Assembly: GCA_030725715.1 (NCBI GenBank)
Contig: JANRFG010000008.1
Location: 2,929-41,762, forward strand
Length of the DNA: 38,834 bases
Source of the DNA: Opitutales bacterium
GTDB lineage: Bacteria > Verrucomicrobiota > Verrucomicrobiia > Opitutales > UBA953
Direction: 5' to 3'
Below the pieces are notes generated by a model. That model worked only from the letters and a program-made list of their open reading frames with translations, did not search any database and was not told where the DNA came from. The translations under genes were made by a program, and so were the position numbers. Of this stretch, positions 20-17,141 are shown in pieces (positions within the stretch are counted from its first letter, which is position 1; every line of letters begins with the position of its first letter).

Positions 20-152
20 GGGCGGACGCGATAGTGATCACGTCCCTACCTCGATGCAGAGGGAGAGCCAAGGGGAGACCGGAAACCGGGAGGTCTGCTG
101 CGGGCATGATTGATAAACCCCAGCCAATCATCCGGTCTCCGGTTTCCCTTTG
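20..152 (+). repeat. Composite intergenic repeat, copy 1
   Basis: A REP-like hairpin (24-50) is followed by a heptamer-built long hairpin. The arm at 73-89 reads as GGAGACC/GGAAACC heptamers and pairs imperfectly with 132-148 (15 of 17 positions), leaving a 42-nt loop. The whole element recurs in inverse orientation at 8650-8774. The inverse copy matches the hairpin, the segment CTACCTCGATGC, both arms and the CCCCAGCC in the loop, and lacks one heptamer of the right arm. A half copy lies at 8405-8441. The reading frames through it are non-genic: both full copies translate to a similar arginine-rich peptide only because the DNA is repeated. Confidence 0.8.
24..50 (-). repeat. REP-like hairpin 1 (CTACC foot)
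   Basis: Arms GGACGCGAT (24-32) and ATCACGTCC (37-45), loop AGTG, one mismatch, followed directly by CTACC (46-50). Read on the minus strand this is a GGTAG foot followed by a 9-nt-arm hairpin, the design of bacterial REP elements. The stem is the same class as hairpin 7 at 8744-8770. Confidence 0.7.
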
Positions 153-5551: not shown

Positions 5552-8170
5552 ATGCCCGCTCCCGCCCGCAAACGTTCCGCCACGCTCGCCCGCCCGGCCA
5601 GCGAGAGCCGACCGATCCTCGCCGCCGTGCTCGCGCTCGGCGCCGCCTACCTGCTCGTGGCGATGCTCTTCAAGGGCGCCGCCGACCAGAACCTCCTCCC
5701 GCAGTGGCTCGAGCAGACCTTCGGCCTGCCGGCCGCCTCCGACGCGACCTTGACCGACAACCCCTGCGGCGCGTTCGGCGCCACGCTCGCGGTCGTCGTC
5801 TTCGCCCTCTTCGGCTACGCCGCCTTCCTCATCCCGTTCTTCCTCTTCGCCGCGGCGTGGTTCGCGCTCAACCAGCGCGCGCACACCCTGTGGCCGGTCA
5901 AGGTCACGCTGATGGCGCTGTGCGTCATCCTCTTCGCGCCCATCCTCACGCTGTGGCTCGGCACCGCCCGCGACGTCGCCATCGCCTTCGACCCGCGCGG
6001 CCCGGGCGGCGTGCTCGGCGAGACGCTCGACGCGGCGGTCTTCCGCCCGATCCTCGGCGACTACGGCACCTGGATCCTCGTCTTCCCTTACGGCTTCTGC
6101 CTCCTCGGCGCCCTCGCCGACGACCCCAAGGCCACGCTGGCCTCGTGGATCGCGGAGATGCGCGACGCCTTCGGCGCGTGGAACGCCGACCGCAAGGCCG
6201 CCGCCCTCAAGGCCGCCGAAGAACAGCGCCGCCGCGACCAGGCCGCCGACGAGCTCCGCCGCAAGCAGCAGGAAGTCGTCGGCGCCGTGATGTCCGTCCC
6301 GCAGCCGAAGGAGACCGCCAAGCCCGTCTCGAAGTCCGTCCCGGTCGAGGTCGACACCCCGCACGAAGGCCCGGCCGAGGACGAGGCCGCCGGCCCCGAC
6401 CTCGTCCGGCCGGACAACGTGAGCATCTCGCCCGCCGAGACGCCCAAGCCTGTGAAGGCCAAGGCGAAGAAGGACGGGACGGAAGAAACGGAAGACGGGG
6501 ACGAGGAAGAAGCCCCCGAAGCCAAGCCGCCGCGCAAGGCCCCCGAGCCGCTCGGCCCCAACGCCGGCAAGGTGCTCGTCGTCCAGCCCGACAAGATCGA
6601 GAAGGCCCGCGCGAGCCAGGTCGTCAAGAAGCGCGGCGACTACGTCTTCCCCGAGATCCGGATGCTCAACGAGCCCTCCGTGAACTCGAAGCTCGAGCCC
6701 GAGGACTTCCGCAAGCGCGCCGCCGACCTCATCGAGACCCTCAAGCAGTTCAAGGTCGACTGCGTGCCGGTCGATCCGGCCAACGGCGTCGACGTCGGCA
6801 TCCAGCAGGGCCCGTCGATCACCCGCTATGAGATCAAGCCCGCCCCGGGCGTGCGCGTGGAGAAGATCTCCAACCTCTCGAACAACATCGCGATGAACCT
6901 CGAGGCCGTCGCCGTGCGCATCCTGGCGCCCGTGCCGGGCAAGGGCACCGTCGGCATCGAGATCCCGAACAAGAACCGCAAGTCCGTCCTCCTGCGCGAG
7001 ATCATCGAATCCAAGGCCTGGGCCGAGGCCCAGATGGAGCTCCCCGTCGTGCTCGGCGTCGACAGCGTCACGAACAAGCCCGTCATCCAGGACCTCGCCA
7101 AGATGCCGCACGCGCTCATCGCCGGCGCCACCGGCCAGGGCAAGTCGGTCTGCATCAACTCGGTCATCGTCTCGCTCCTCTACCGCTGCACGCCGCAGGA
7201 CCTGCGCTTCATCATGGTCGACCCCAAAGTGGTCGAGCTGCAGATCTACAACAACCTGCCGCACCTGCTCATCCCGGTCGAGACCGACCCCAAGCGCGTG
7301 CCCGCCGCCCTCAAGTGGCTCATCGCGGAGATGTCGCAGCGCTACAAGATCTTCGCCAAGTGCGGCGTGAAGAACATCACCGGGTTCAACGCCAAGATCG
7401 CCAAGGAGGCCGGCGCGCCGAAGCAGGAGGAGCTCCCGCTCAGCCCCGAGGAGCAGGCCGCCGCCGCGGCCGCGGCCGAGGAGGTCATCGACGACGGCGT
7501 CCGCGTCCAGACCGAGAAGCTGCCTTACATCGTCTGCATCATCGACGAGATGGCCGACCTCATGATGGTCGCCGCGCAGGACATCGAGACCTCCGTCGCG
7601 CGCATCGCCCAGCTGGCCCGCGCCGCCGGCATCCACCTCGTGCTCGCCACGCAGCGTCCGTCGACCGACGTCATCACCGGCCTCATCAAGGCCAACCTGC
7701 CCACGCGCATCGGCTTCAAGGTCACCTCGCAGATCGACTCGCGCACCATCCTCGACCGCGGCGGCGCCGAGACCCTCATCGGCAACGGCGACATGCTCTT
7801 CGTGCCGCCGGGCAGCGCCACGCTCAACCGCGTGCAGGGCGCGTTCGTCGGCGAGCAGGAAGTCGCCGCCATCGTCGAGTTCCTCGCCGAGAAGAACGGC
7901 AAGCCCGAGTTCGCCCAGGACGTCATCAAGGCCATCAAGGACGGCGCCGAAGGCGGCGAGGACGGCGAGGACGGCGAGGCGGGCGAGGACCCGCTGGTGG
8001 CCCAGAGCTGGGCCATCATCAAGCAGACGCGCCGCGCCTCGGTCTCGATGCTCCAGCGCAAGCTCAGCATCGGCTACAACAAGGCGGCCCGCATCATGGA
8101 TATCCTGGAAGAGAAGGGCTACGTCGGCCCCGAGAACGGTTCGAGCCCCCGCGAGATCCTCGTCGACTAG
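5552..8170 (+). CDS. ftsK: DNA translocase FtsK/SpoIIIE
   Basis: Protein of 872 residues. It is a septum-anchored hexameric ATPase that pumps chromosome termini and activates XerCD at dif. About four N-terminal membrane segments lie at residues 21-40, 74-106, 115-137 and 172-188. A charged linker (about 190-355) has an acidic run and Lys/Pro stretches. The motor carries Walker A GATGQGKS (525-532) and Walker B IIDEMAD (Asp665, Glu666), with an Ala/Glu-rich insertion between them. A Gly/Glu/Asp-rich hinge leads to the C-terminal gamma winged helix (SMLQRKLSIGYNKAARIMD) that reads KOPS sites. The start ATG at 5552 lacks a Shine-Dalgarno sequence. A long opposite-strand frame across the gene is a GC-bias shadow. 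Confidence 0.97.
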   Translation: MPAPARKRSATLARPASESRPILAAVLALGAAYLLVAMLFKGAADQNLLPQWLEQTFGLPAASDATLTDNPCGAFGATLAVVVFALFGYAAFLIPFFLFAAAWFALNQRAHTLWPVKVTLMALCVILFAPILTLWLGTARDVAIAFDPRGPGGVLGETLDAAVFRPILGDYGTWILVFPYGFCLLGALADDPKATLASWIAEMRDAFGAWNADRKAAALKAAEEQRRRDQAADELRRKQQEVVGAVMSVPQPKETAKPVSKSVPVEVDTPHEGPAEDEAAGPDLVRPDNVSISPAETPKPVKAKAKKDGTEETEDGDEEEAPEAKPPRKAPEPLGPNAGKVLVVQPDKIEKARASQVVKKRGDYVFPEIRMLNEPSVNSKLEPEDFRKRAADLIETLKQFKVDCVPVDPANGVDVGIQQGPSITRYEIKPAPGVRVEKISNLSNNIAMNLEAVAVRILAPVPGKGTVGIEIPNKNRKSVLLREIIESKAWAEAQMELPVVLGVDSVTNKPVIQDLAKMPHALIAGATGQGKSVCINSVIVSLLYRCTPQDLRFIMVDPKVVELQIYNNLPHLLIPVETDPKRVPAALKWLIAEMSQRYKIFAKCGVKNITGFNAKIAKEAGAPKQEELPLSPEEQAAAAAAAEEVIDDGVRVQTEKLPYIVCIIDEMADLMMVAAQDIETSVARIAQLARAAGIHLVLATQRPSTDVITGLIKANLPTRIGFKVTSQIDSRTILDRGGAETLIGNGDMLFVPPGSATLNRVQGAFVGEQEVAAIVEFLAEKNGKPEFAQDVIKAIKDGAEGGEDGEDGEAGEDPLVAQSWAIIKQTRRASVSMLQRKLSIGYNKAARIMDILEEKGYVGPENGSSPREILVD

Positions 8171-8174
8171 AGTC

Positions 8175-8206
8175 GAGGGCACGAGGGCTCGAGGGCTCGA
8201 GGGCGT
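8175..8206. repeat. Degenerate octamer array after ftsK
   Basis: Four 8-bp units in register: GAGGGCAC, GAGGGCTC, GAGGGCTC, GAGGGCGT. The array starts 4 bp after the ftsK stop codon. Its reverse complement (units of the type CTCGAGCC) is the same family as the eight-unit array at 8791-8854, so the two arrays bracket the 8.2-8.8 kb island in inverted orientation. Confidence 0.7.
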
Positions 8207-8220
8207 CGCCCTTGCCTCGA

Positions 8221-8246
8221 GGTAGGGACAGCACCACGTGCGGTCC
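8221..8246 (+). repeat. REP-like hairpin 2
   Basis: GGTAG foot (8221-8225), arm GGACAGCAC (8226-8234), loop CAC, arm GTGCGGTCC (8238-8246), one mismatch. The stem is the same class as the perfect hairpin at 17116-17136 in the second island. Confidence 0.7.
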
Positions 8247-8249
8247 TCG

Positions 8250-8265
8250 TTCGCCGCAGGGCGAA
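8250..8265. repeat. Linker palindrome between REP-like hairpins
   Basis: TTCGCC (8250-8255) pairs with GGCGAA (8260-8265) across a 4-nt loop, and is followed by CCTAGG, not a clean CTACC foot. It lies between two same-direction hairpins, as spacer sequence in a BIME might. A comparable 7-bp palindrome without a foot lies at 8336-8353. Confidence 0.5.
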
Positions 8266-8269
8266 CCTA

Positions 8270-8294
8270 GGTAGGGGCACGATTCATCGTGACC
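8270..8294 (+). repeat. REP-like hairpin 3
   Basis: GGTAG foot (8270-8274), arm GGGCACGAT (8275-8283), 2-nt loop TC, arm ATCGTGACC (8286-8294), one mismatch near the base of the stem. Confidence 0.7.
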
Positions 8295-8306
8295 TCCTGA
8301 GCGGGA

Positions 8307-8332
8307 GGGCGCGGCGTAGCCACGCCCCTACC
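8307..8332 (-). repeat. REP-like hairpin 4
   Basis: Arm GGGCGCGGC (8307-8315), loop GTA, arm GCCACGCCC (8319-8327), then the inverted foot CTACC (8328-8332). One mismatch at the sixth stem pair. Hairpins 3 and 4 point toward each other, giving a BIME-like REP/inverse-REP pair. Confidence 0.7.
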
Positions 8333-8357
8333 TTCGGCCGCCCTGCGGCGGCCTGGC

Positions 8358-8383
8358 GGATGCGATGTCATCGCATCCCTACC
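8358..8383 (-). repeat. REP-like hairpin 5
   Basis: Arm GGATGCGAT (8358-8366), loop GTC, arm ATCGCATCC (8370-8378), perfectly paired over 9 bp, followed by CTACC (8379-8383). The stem sequence is unrelated to neighbouring hairpins although geometry and foot are the same. Confidence 0.75.
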
Positions 8384-8404
8384 TCAAGACAGCGACACAT
8401 GGCT

Positions 8405-8441
8405 CAAGGGGAGACCGGAGACCGGATGATGGGCTGCGGCC
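8405..8441 (-). repeat. Half copy of the composite repeat
   Basis: Matches the inverse of the right half of the element at 20-152 (heptamers GGAGACC twice, then GGATGAT and GGCTG). It is placed shortly after REP-like hairpin 5, just as the full copy follows hairpin 1. Confidence 0.6.
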
Positions 8442-8470
8442 AATTTCAGGTCGCGGGTCTCGGCAGTCGG

Positions 8471-8590
8471 GTCCCAGGTTCAGGTGTTTAGGTGCGGGTA
8501 CAGGTTCAGGATCTGCATTTTGTCCCGTACCCGCACCTGTACCTGATAATCCGCACCAGGGACCTGAGGGCTGAGACCTGAGACCGGAAG
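8471..8590. repeat. Short-unit repeats with a 12-bp inverted repeat
   Basis: AGGTGCGGGTAC (8490-8501) is perfectly complementary to GTACCCGCACCT (8527-8538) across a 25-nt loop. Flanks are built of degenerate units: NNCAGG-type hexamers on the left, CCYGYA-type hexamers in the right arm, then heptamers CCTGAGG, GCTGAGA, CCTGAGA, CCGGAAG. No coding sequence is supported here. Confidence 0.55.
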
Positions 8591-8603
8591 TAGCCTGCAC
8601 CTA

Positions 8604-8629
8604 TGTCGTGACGCGGTCCCGACCCTACC
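8604..8629 (-). repeat. REP-like hairpin 6
   Basis: Arm TGTCGTGAC (8604-8612), loop GCG, arm GTCCCGACC (8616-8624), then CTACC (8625-8629). The last 25 bases are identical to the hairpin at 17082-17107. Confidence 0.7.
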
Positions 8630-8649
8630 CAAGGCAGAGAGGCGGCGCT

Positions 8650-8774
8650 CAAAGGGGAACCGGATGATCGGCTGGGGTTGTTAGTAATGCCCGAAGCAAC
8701 CCTTCCGGTTTCCGGTCTCCCTTTGGCTTTTCCTCCGCATCGAGGTAGGGACGTGATCACGTTCGCGTCCGCCC
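8650..8774 (-). repeat. Composite intergenic repeat, copy 3 (inverse of copy 1)
   Basis: Reverse complement of 20-152 with scattered substitutions and one heptamer fewer in one arm. It contains REP-like hairpin 7: GGTAG foot (8744-8748), arm GGACGTGAT (8749-8757), loop CACG, arm TTCGCGTCC (8762-8770). Together with copy 1 it forms a long inverted repeat flanking the purC-ftsK block. Confidence 0.8.
8744..8770 (+). repeat. REP-like hairpin 7
   Basis: GGTAG foot at 8744-8748, 9-nt arms at 8749-8757 and 8762-8770, 4-nt loop, two mismatches. The centre contains the 12-bp palindrome ACGTGATCACGT. It is part of composite repeat copy 3. Confidence 0.7.
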
Positions 8775-8790
8775 AAGGCAGATGGCTTTC

Positions 8791-8854
8791 CTCGTGCCCT
8801 CGTGTCCTCCGGCCCTCGATTCCTCCAGTCCTCGAGACCTCGAGTCCTCGCGTC
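8791..8854. repeat. Eight-unit degenerate octamer array
   Basis: Eight 8-bp units in strict register: CTCGTGCC, CTCGTGTC, CTCCGGCC, CTCGATTC, CTCCAGTC, CTCGAGAC, CTCGAGTC, CTCGCGTC. The first three positions are always CTC and the last is always C. The array ends 3 bp from the stop codon of the minus-strand gene at 8858, and is the inverse of the array at 8175-8206. Confidence 0.75.
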
Positions 8855-8857
8855 CGC

Positions 8858-9097
8858 CTATTTCTTCTTTTCCTTCTTCTTCCGCTCGGGGACGACGGGC
8901 TTCTTCTTTTTCTCGGGCACAGGGATCGACGGTTCCGGCGTAGGCTGGGTCGGATCGACGGTGGGGGCGGGGGCGTTCGGATCGAAGAAAGGCTTCGGCG
9001 CGGCGGGCGCGGGCGTGGCCGGCGTCGGGGCGGCCTCCTTGGCGGGTTCGACGGCGACGGCCAGGGCGGCCACGAAGAGCAGGGCGAGCGGGCGCAT
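8858..9097 (-). CDS. Tiny secreted Pro/Ala-rich protein with a poly-Lys tail
   Basis: Protein of 79 residues, family unknown. A short signal peptide (MRPLALLFVAALAVAVE) is followed by a Pro/Ala/Thr-rich stretch and a strongly basic tail of KKKK and RKKKEKKK runs. There is no recognisable fold and it is probably disordered. The ATG at 9097 fits the signal peptide; a GTG three codons earlier (9106) is possible. A promoter-like TTGCAA (9139-9134), 17 bp, TGTTTA (9116-9111) lies upstream. Its composition resembles the next gene upstream, also small, exported and lysine-rich. Confidence 0.55.
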   Translation of the reverse strand: MRPLALLFVAALAVAVEPAKEAAPTPATPAPAAPKPFFDPNAPAPTVDPTQPTPEPSIPVPEKKKKPVVPERKKKEKKK

Positions 9098-9158
9098 GGG
9101 GGTCACTGATTAAACATCGCGGGTGAGGGGAAGTTGCAAGCCTCCCGCGGCGGGCATG

Positions 9159-17024: not shown

Positions 17025-17050
17025 GGTAGGGCTGACCGCCTCGGTCAGCC
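17025..17050 (+). repeat. REP-like hairpin 8
   Basis: GGTAG foot (17025-17029), arm GGCTGACCG (17030-17038), loop CCT, arm CGGTCAGCC (17042-17050). It is perfectly paired over 9 bp, and this stem sequence is not seen elsewhere in the window. Confidence 0.75.
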
Positions 17051-17115: not shown

Positions 17116-17141
17116 GGACAGCACGTGGTGCTGTCCCTACC
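17116..17141 (-). repeat. REP-like hairpin 10
   Basis: Arm GGACAGCAC (17116-17124), loop GTG, arm GTGCTGTCC (17128-17136), perfectly paired, then CTACC (17137-17141). Same stem class as hairpin 2 but in the opposite direction. The stretch 17142-17326 after it holds no gene I can support; an AT-rich TATTAT at 17266-17271 is a possible -10 element without a clear -35. Confidence 0.75.

Follow-up and report, generated by a model that had tools for sequence, protein, structure and literature searches.

In this study, we analysed a stretch of 38,834 nucleotides (the window) from an uncultured Opitutales bacterium (contig JANRFG010000008.1 of assembly GCA_030725715.1; contig 8 of the genome that we label G000), in which ten short hairpins share a GGTAG foot touching a stem of nine-base arms and differ in the sequence of the stem. 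We conclude that they are probably repetitive extragenic palindromic (REP) elements of several lineages of REP-associated tyrosine transposases (RAYTs), with the tip of the hairpin read by the transposase, the middle of the stem acting as a spacer, and an arginine at RAYT residue 53 partly shifting specificity. That the hairpins are REP elements had been proposed in an earlier note, made from the letters of the window alone, and this view was borne out: an unpaired GTAG lies 5' of the hairpin, there are many, mostly intergenic copies, inverted dimers occur, and RAYT genes are flanked by such hairpins.

All ten positions given in that note were confirmed, and its count of about seven stems held. 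Read foot first, in the GGTAG direction, the foot is followed by a nine-base arm that starts with GG and takes one of seven sequences: GGACAGCAC (hairpins at 8221 and 17116), GGACGTGAT (24 and 8744), GGATGCGAT (8358), GGGCACGAT (8270), GGGCGTGGC (8307), GGTCGGGAC (8604 and 17082) and GGCTGACCG (17025). With G-T pairs allowed, nine of nine positions pair in five hairpins (24, 8307, 8358, 17025 and 17116), eight of nine in four others, and seven of nine in the hairpin at 8604. The features and their stem classes are:

24 to 50, reverse strand: REP hairpin of class D2, GGACGTGAT.CACT.ATCGCGTCC; D2 is paired with D1 elsewhere in the genome
8221 to 8246, forward strand: REP hairpin of class A, GGACAGCAC.CAC.GTGCGGTCC, with one mismatch; class A also flanks the RAYT gene on contig C27
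8270 to 8294, forward strand: REP hairpin of class F2, GGGCACGAT.TC.ATCGTGACC, head-to-head with F1
8307 to 8332, reverse strand: REP hairpin of class F1, GGGCGTGGC.TAC.GCCGCGCCC
8252 to 8350, no strand: the F2/F1 head-to-head dimer with an outer inverted repeat; its surroundings resemble, by eye, those of the RAYT gene on contig C16 (L035)
8358 to 8383, reverse strand: REP hairpin of class D1, GGATGCGAT.GAC.ATCGCATCC; class D1 also flanks a RAYT gene of another genome (L164)
8604 to 8629, reverse strand: REP hairpin of class G, GGTCGGGAC.CGC.GTCACGACA, with two mispairs; class G also flanks the RAYT genes L034 and L050/L161
8744 to 8770, forward strand: REP hairpin of class D2, a degenerate copy
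17025 to 17050, forward strand: REP hairpin of class H, GGCTGACCG.CCT.CGGTCAGCC; an identical stem lies near the RAYT genes L023 and L071
17082 to 17107, reverse strand: REP hairpin of class G
17116 to 17141, reverse strand: REP hairpin of class A, a perfect copy, whose outer end is the point where homology with three relatives resumes

The main cluster sits between ftsK, which ends at 8170, and a short opposite-strand reading frame (8858-9106). Nested imperfect inverted repeats, made up of GAGGGC-, CCGGTCTCC- and CAGGT-like words, enclose its hairpins (8175-8194/8790-8809, 8405-8442/8688-8725 and 8490-8543), and stretches resembling them occur at the same sites in three relatives (G003, G004 and G011).

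Hairpins of this kind are far commoner than in shuffled sequence. A strict scan of the window found 5 GGTAG hairpins, where 100 dinucleotide shuffles held 0.03 on average and 1 at most. Another scan, which asked for a GTAG foot and a minimum of 7 of 9 pairs on either strand, gave 19 matches, comprising the ten hairpins and nine that lack the combination of GGTAG and a GG stem. In a sample of 405,420 bases of G000, made up of the window and 20 stretches from contigs chosen non-randomly (about 21% of the genome), the strict scan found 37 hairpins and each of 10 shuffles held 0-1; genome-wide, a loose pattern gave 132+137 matches against 66+53 in a reversed control, overlapping readings included. 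From contigs 1-10 we kept 80 hairpins, after removing overlapping readings and unpaired matches by eye, and these fell into 14 stem classes with one hairpin unplaced; head-to-head dimers among them were F1-F2 (five), D1-D2 (three) and B-B (two). By a rough proxy, hairpins lay outside long open reading frames (ORFs) in 36 of 48 cases, and ORFs of this length cover 94%. At no more than one mismatch, classes A, B and D1 have 43, 28 and 21 copies in G000 and are present in 10, 8 and 10 of 12 other genomes of the same genus that were searched, and in none of six genomes from other families of the order.

Genes of the kind that would mobilize such hairpins are present as well. A search for RAYT genes with matching flanking hairpins, suggested in the earlier note, found two different ones in G000, each flanked by hairpins of its own, and more in relatives. 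Class A flanks the gene on contig C27; the other gene lies on contig C16. Their assignment follows from an HUH nuclease with a conserved tyrosine that is closest to TnpA-REP, and the G000 RAYT scored 71.6 bits against an NCBIfam cut-off of 80, with a relative (L014) at 81.7. The Pfam Y1_Tnp model was set aside as a RAYT finder, as it reported just one of the two genes, below its cut-off, and a family-specific profile recovered both. For the G000 RAYT, the nearest named records belong to Opitutia (Opitutae), nearly all from metagenome assemblies, with the taxonomy checked for one. Most of the other stems could be matched to RAYTs of relatives, whose genes have such stems on their flanks, and a direct pattern search placed class G hairpins at L034 and L050; no RAYT turned up for stems D2 and E, and class F was linked to one by its surroundings alone. 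We infer that class F represents the published "orthoswitch", an exchange of the hairpins next to a RAYT that leaves older copies in place (PMC3686654). The presence of two different RAYTs in G000, and the lack of a match for one RAYT query in plasmids and phages, fit a gene with few chromosomal copies and not a spreading insertion sequence.

Among 98 RAYT loci, some of them genes counted from two collections, hairpins lay within 260 bp on both strands in 77, on one strand in 12 and on neither in 9, compared with 2-3 of 80 control windows of the same loci. The association was weaker in a fresh, more distant set, in which 36 of 108 additional RAYTs, drawn from 194 genomes across the phylum, had hairpins on both strands. 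Stem similarity tracks RAYT similarity: across six bins of falling RAYT identity, the fraction of whole arms that are identical was 0.87, 0.78, 0.11, 0.01, 0.00 and 0.00, the second to fourth values corresponding to 70-90%, 50-70% and 40-50% protein identity. The suggestion of several RAYT specificities is thus supported, by the presence of a RAYT's own stems on its flanks and by the tendency of similar RAYTs to have similar stems.

We next consider which part of the stem carries this specificity. Both arms change together, as the earlier note had described, and the stems do not trace to one recent ancestor through uncompensated changes in single arms. Among 54 distinct RAYT-flanking hairpins, mispairs occupy 9 of 432 cells at positions 1-8 and 8 of 54 at position 9, and positions 3, 4, 6 and 8 each show three or four Watson-Crick pair types; a scan that tolerated one mismatch partly guarantees the high pairing, but it does not account for the variety of pair types. 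An internal comparison comes from the two strands at each RAYT gene, where gene-strand and opposite-strand stems differ in 30 of 34 non-redundant RAYTs with nine-base arms. In these 30 pairs, the first loop base is the same in every case (shuffled mean 14.4), arm position 8 in 27 (9.6), position 9 in 22 (12.8) and the whole loop in 19 (2.7). Positions 3 and 4 at the stem base are shared too (21 and 23, against 9.9 and 12.5), whereas positions 5 and 6 are at chance (22 against 21.1 and 10 against 9.0). Similarly, in 18 fresh RAYTs, one of them identical to a RAYT of the first set, the top pairs were shared in 17 and 16 and the first loop base in 17, with positions 5, 6 and 7 shared in 7, 9 and 10 (shuffled 8.2, 7.0 and 6.8). 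Shared descent of the two hairpins could contribute to this pattern, but alone would not spare the tip and not the middle.

On the protein side, the alignment column most tied to the first loop base in the first set was residue 53 of the G000 RAYT; RAYTs with Arg53 had G as first loop base in 15 of 15 cases. As this column had been selected among many, the rule was fixed beforehand and then put to the fresh set. There, G was present in both hairpins of every Arg53 RAYT (8 of 8), compared with 5 of 25 for other residues with both hairpins agreeing, and 3 loci were discordant (in the first set, 2 of 63, L029 and L036). These eight RAYTs are at most 47-55% identical to any RAYT of the first set, and removal of two fresh RAYTs identical to first-set ones (L216 and L278) left the table at 8:0 versus 5:18; three Arg53 RAYTs, two of them fresh and one from the first set, lacked a usable pair and are uninformative. 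With both sets pooled, G accompanies Arg53 in 23 of 23 RAYTs and the absence of arginine in 7 of 71, the strongest association of 397 residue-columns. The best tree gave 11 edge-disjoint pairs, 9-11 of them in the same direction and none opposite, on a phylogeny that is weakly resolved (136 columns, 22 of 87 inner branches well supported). Residue 53 falls near the end of a helix (40-55) in a structural model; it may contact the first loop base directly. Another candidate, residue 92, came top of the first covariation scan and first for arm position 8, and was dropped when independent pairs failed to support it (1.6 in the same direction, 0.5 opposite); by counting along the alignment it corresponds to chain position 82 of 4er8, and in E. 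coli K82 contacts the REP bulge (PMC8266576).

Orthologous sites in relatives carry different hairpins. Behind ftsK, G000 has six hairpins with six stems; among ten relatives whose ftsK ends are 69-91% identical, two (G008 and G011) carry a class L pair instead, G003 carries one D2 and one A hairpin, and no hairpins occur in the remaining seven over the stretch examined, which is cut short in some. A single match within the ftsK gene of G004 appears to be a chance hit. G003 also contains, in inverted orientation, about 150 bases of the cluster and the class A stretch. At the second site, the similarity to G007, G004 and G011 picks up again precisely at 17141, and other hairpins occur in G012, G004 and G011 and none in G007. 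Presence thus differs at the two sites, in comparisons with 10 and 5 relatives, and no clean empty site was seen among them; G003 and G002 share parts of the sites, in place or inverted. The sites are changeable, by insertion or by loss. The second site, near a DUF1552 site, also holds a palindrome of about 60 bases (GGTCAGACCGCTTCCGA...) in G007 (L192) and G002 (L196), and a similar palindrome lies on both sides (L005, 448 and 1462) of a long Y1 transposase gene of 325 aa in G001. A second type of Y1 protein is present in the genus (L005, L007 and L008, open frames of 306-333 aa); two of these, L005 and L007, have sub-threshold matches to NCBIfam REP_Tyr_transpos.

Several features of this system have precedents. 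Contrary to the earlier note, classic families are not limited to a single stem in each genome: genomes with several classes have been published (PMC3686654, PMC3733652), including those of Pseudomonas and Stenotrophomonas, where some classes outlive their RAYT (PMC3686654). The SM1-SM13 classes of Stenotrophomonas and PF1-PF22 of fluorescent pseudomonads likewise comprise several RAYT-tied classes, RAYT-less classes and inverted dimers, and those of Stenotrophomonas have perfect stems of 8-9 bp right after the tetranucleotide; unlike them, the two strands of a RAYT locus here differ in stem (30 of 34) and share the tip, and copy numbers are lower than usual in pseudomonads (PMC3686654). The 24 published GTAG families, which include Opitutus terrae (Verrucomicrobia), share the GTAG foot, stems of 5-13 bp, short loops, and homo- and heterodimers, but their stems are not matched by tip to single RAYTs in the parts of that source used here (PMC3733652). 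The group 3 TnpA-REP of S. maltophilia and Marinomonas also have short perfect palindromes and an essential loop base, which in S. maltophilia is G13, the first in the loop; that study addressed single pairs in vitro and left the loop-reading residue open (PMC8266576). E. coli TnpA-REP (PDB 4er8) shares the fold, HUH motif and tyrosine, but E. coli REPs have a required bulge and a loop with a structural role only (PMC8266576). The kind of system is therefore known, and for the shared hairpin tip and the arginine-loop rule we found no report in the literature searched.

Not all of our observations favour the explanation proposed here. In S. maltophilia, cleavage fell somewhat when the central and upper stem were altered, fell strongly with a mid-stem mismatch, and improved when the three bottom pairs were altered (PMC8266576), results that argue both against reading of the stem base and against an entirely passive middle; the fit to published work is only partial, in that our tip result agrees with the loop finding and a read stem base is in tension with the assays. 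Within our own data, position 7 is weakly shared (19 of 30 against 13.9 shuffled), first loop bases differ within genomic D1-D2 dimers, and mid-stem changes accompany changes in column 104 (13 of 17 versus 0 of 17, in 34 nearest RAYT pairs), a link that may reflect divergence or reading. Loop G occurs without Arg53 in L055 and L164 of the first set and in five fresh RAYTs; well-supported branches alone give only two pairs for Arg53-G, both in agreement and not significant; and in a nearest-pair test on any change of column 53, the column ranked behind others in its link to the first loop base (P 0.03; the best column reached 0.007), though the table still showed arginine going with G. Furthermore, 57 of 108 fresh RAYT loci lack such a hairpin and 15 have one on one strand only, and the class F stems in the window (F1 and F2) are unlike those beside the C16 RAYT despite surroundings that look alike by eye. 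Among copies sought at no more than one mismatch, the classes without a RAYT in this assembly, B (26 of 28 exact) and D1 (20 of 21), are not visibly more decayed than A (37 of 43), so that a view of loss followed by decay fits badly; a RAYT lost only lately, one that falls in an assembly gap, another RAYT that copies these classes, or selection acting on the hairpins could each account for this. Lastly, G002 has a degenerate class A hairpin where G000 has 17116, and the sites are therefore not a plain record of fresh insertion. Our confidence is reduced by this counterpart and by the stem results in the literature.

This same G002 hairpin, standing in place, lends some weight to the alternative that the hairpins are retained as transcriptional or other structural signals, with stems altered in place by compensating mutations. 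Their position mostly outside long ORFs and the slight decay of the orphan classes suit it, and after ftsK a terminator-like GC-rich hairpin with a T run is found in three relatives (L172 in G007, L174 in G004 and L178 in G002) where G000 has the REP cluster. We regard this alternative as improbable, since no terminator-like site was found in 8150-8900, identical sequences recur at many places across the genus, and hairpins at orthologous sites are mostly different or absent. A second alternative, that one resident RAYT reading foot and shape alone copies every stem, would explain how two RAYTs coexist in G000 with about 14 stem classes in the contigs surveyed, and why RAYT-less classes are still near-perfect copies. 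It is unlikely, because RAYT loci carry their own stems, which track RAYT identity, and the tip is common within a RAYT and not between RAYTs. The idea of a transposase that reads only foot and shape, raised in the earlier note, is hence unsupported in that form, as the tip goes with the RAYT, yet is right in part, as pairs 5 and 6 vary as freely within a RAYT as between RAYTs. A third alternative, that the diversity was imported with wrongly binned contigs or by horizontal transfer of REP-RAYT pairs in the recent past, would suit an assembly (1,927,859 bases) that is in 37 contigs and 94.86% complete, and classes that are common to many relatives. It is very improbable, since contamination is 0.2%, several classes are adjacent on one contig within the window, and one RAYT query had no match in plasmids (E 1e-8) or phages (E 1e-6).

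We therefore favour generation of the hairpins by several RAYT (TnpA-REP) lineages of one Opitutia genus. As is known for the family, a RAYT gene lying between its own inverted hairpins would copy such pairs, in single-stranded form, into mostly intergenic places. G000 would retain hairpins of its two resident RAYTs (class A and, judging by surroundings, class F) together with those of RAYTs so far known from relatives alone (D1, G, H and others). As a single protein fold has to bind both the foot and the tip of a rod whose length is fixed, the geometry would not vary. The tip, meaning the top two pairs and the first loop base, would be the identity that the RAYT reads, and the middle of the stem largely a spacer, free to change when both arms change together; the stem base is shared too, and we are unsure whether it is read. 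Specificity would shift partly via residue 53, with arginine accompanying G as first loop base.

REP elements are common in bacteria, and how each RAYT finds its own repeats is an open question; in the 2021 biochemical study, loop contacts of short-palindrome RAYTs could only be guessed (PMC8266576). Genomes such as G000 provide a natural mutagenesis set that points to a residue and a base. Tentatively, and aware that it could well prove otherwise, we propose that short-palindrome RAYTs use a modular code, with a common foot and geometry, identity in the tip, and residue 53 at the end of helix one reading the first loop base, Arg for G. If this is true, RAYT specificity would be predictable from sequence, and new orthogonal pairs would arise via changes in the tip while the middle of the stem drifts.
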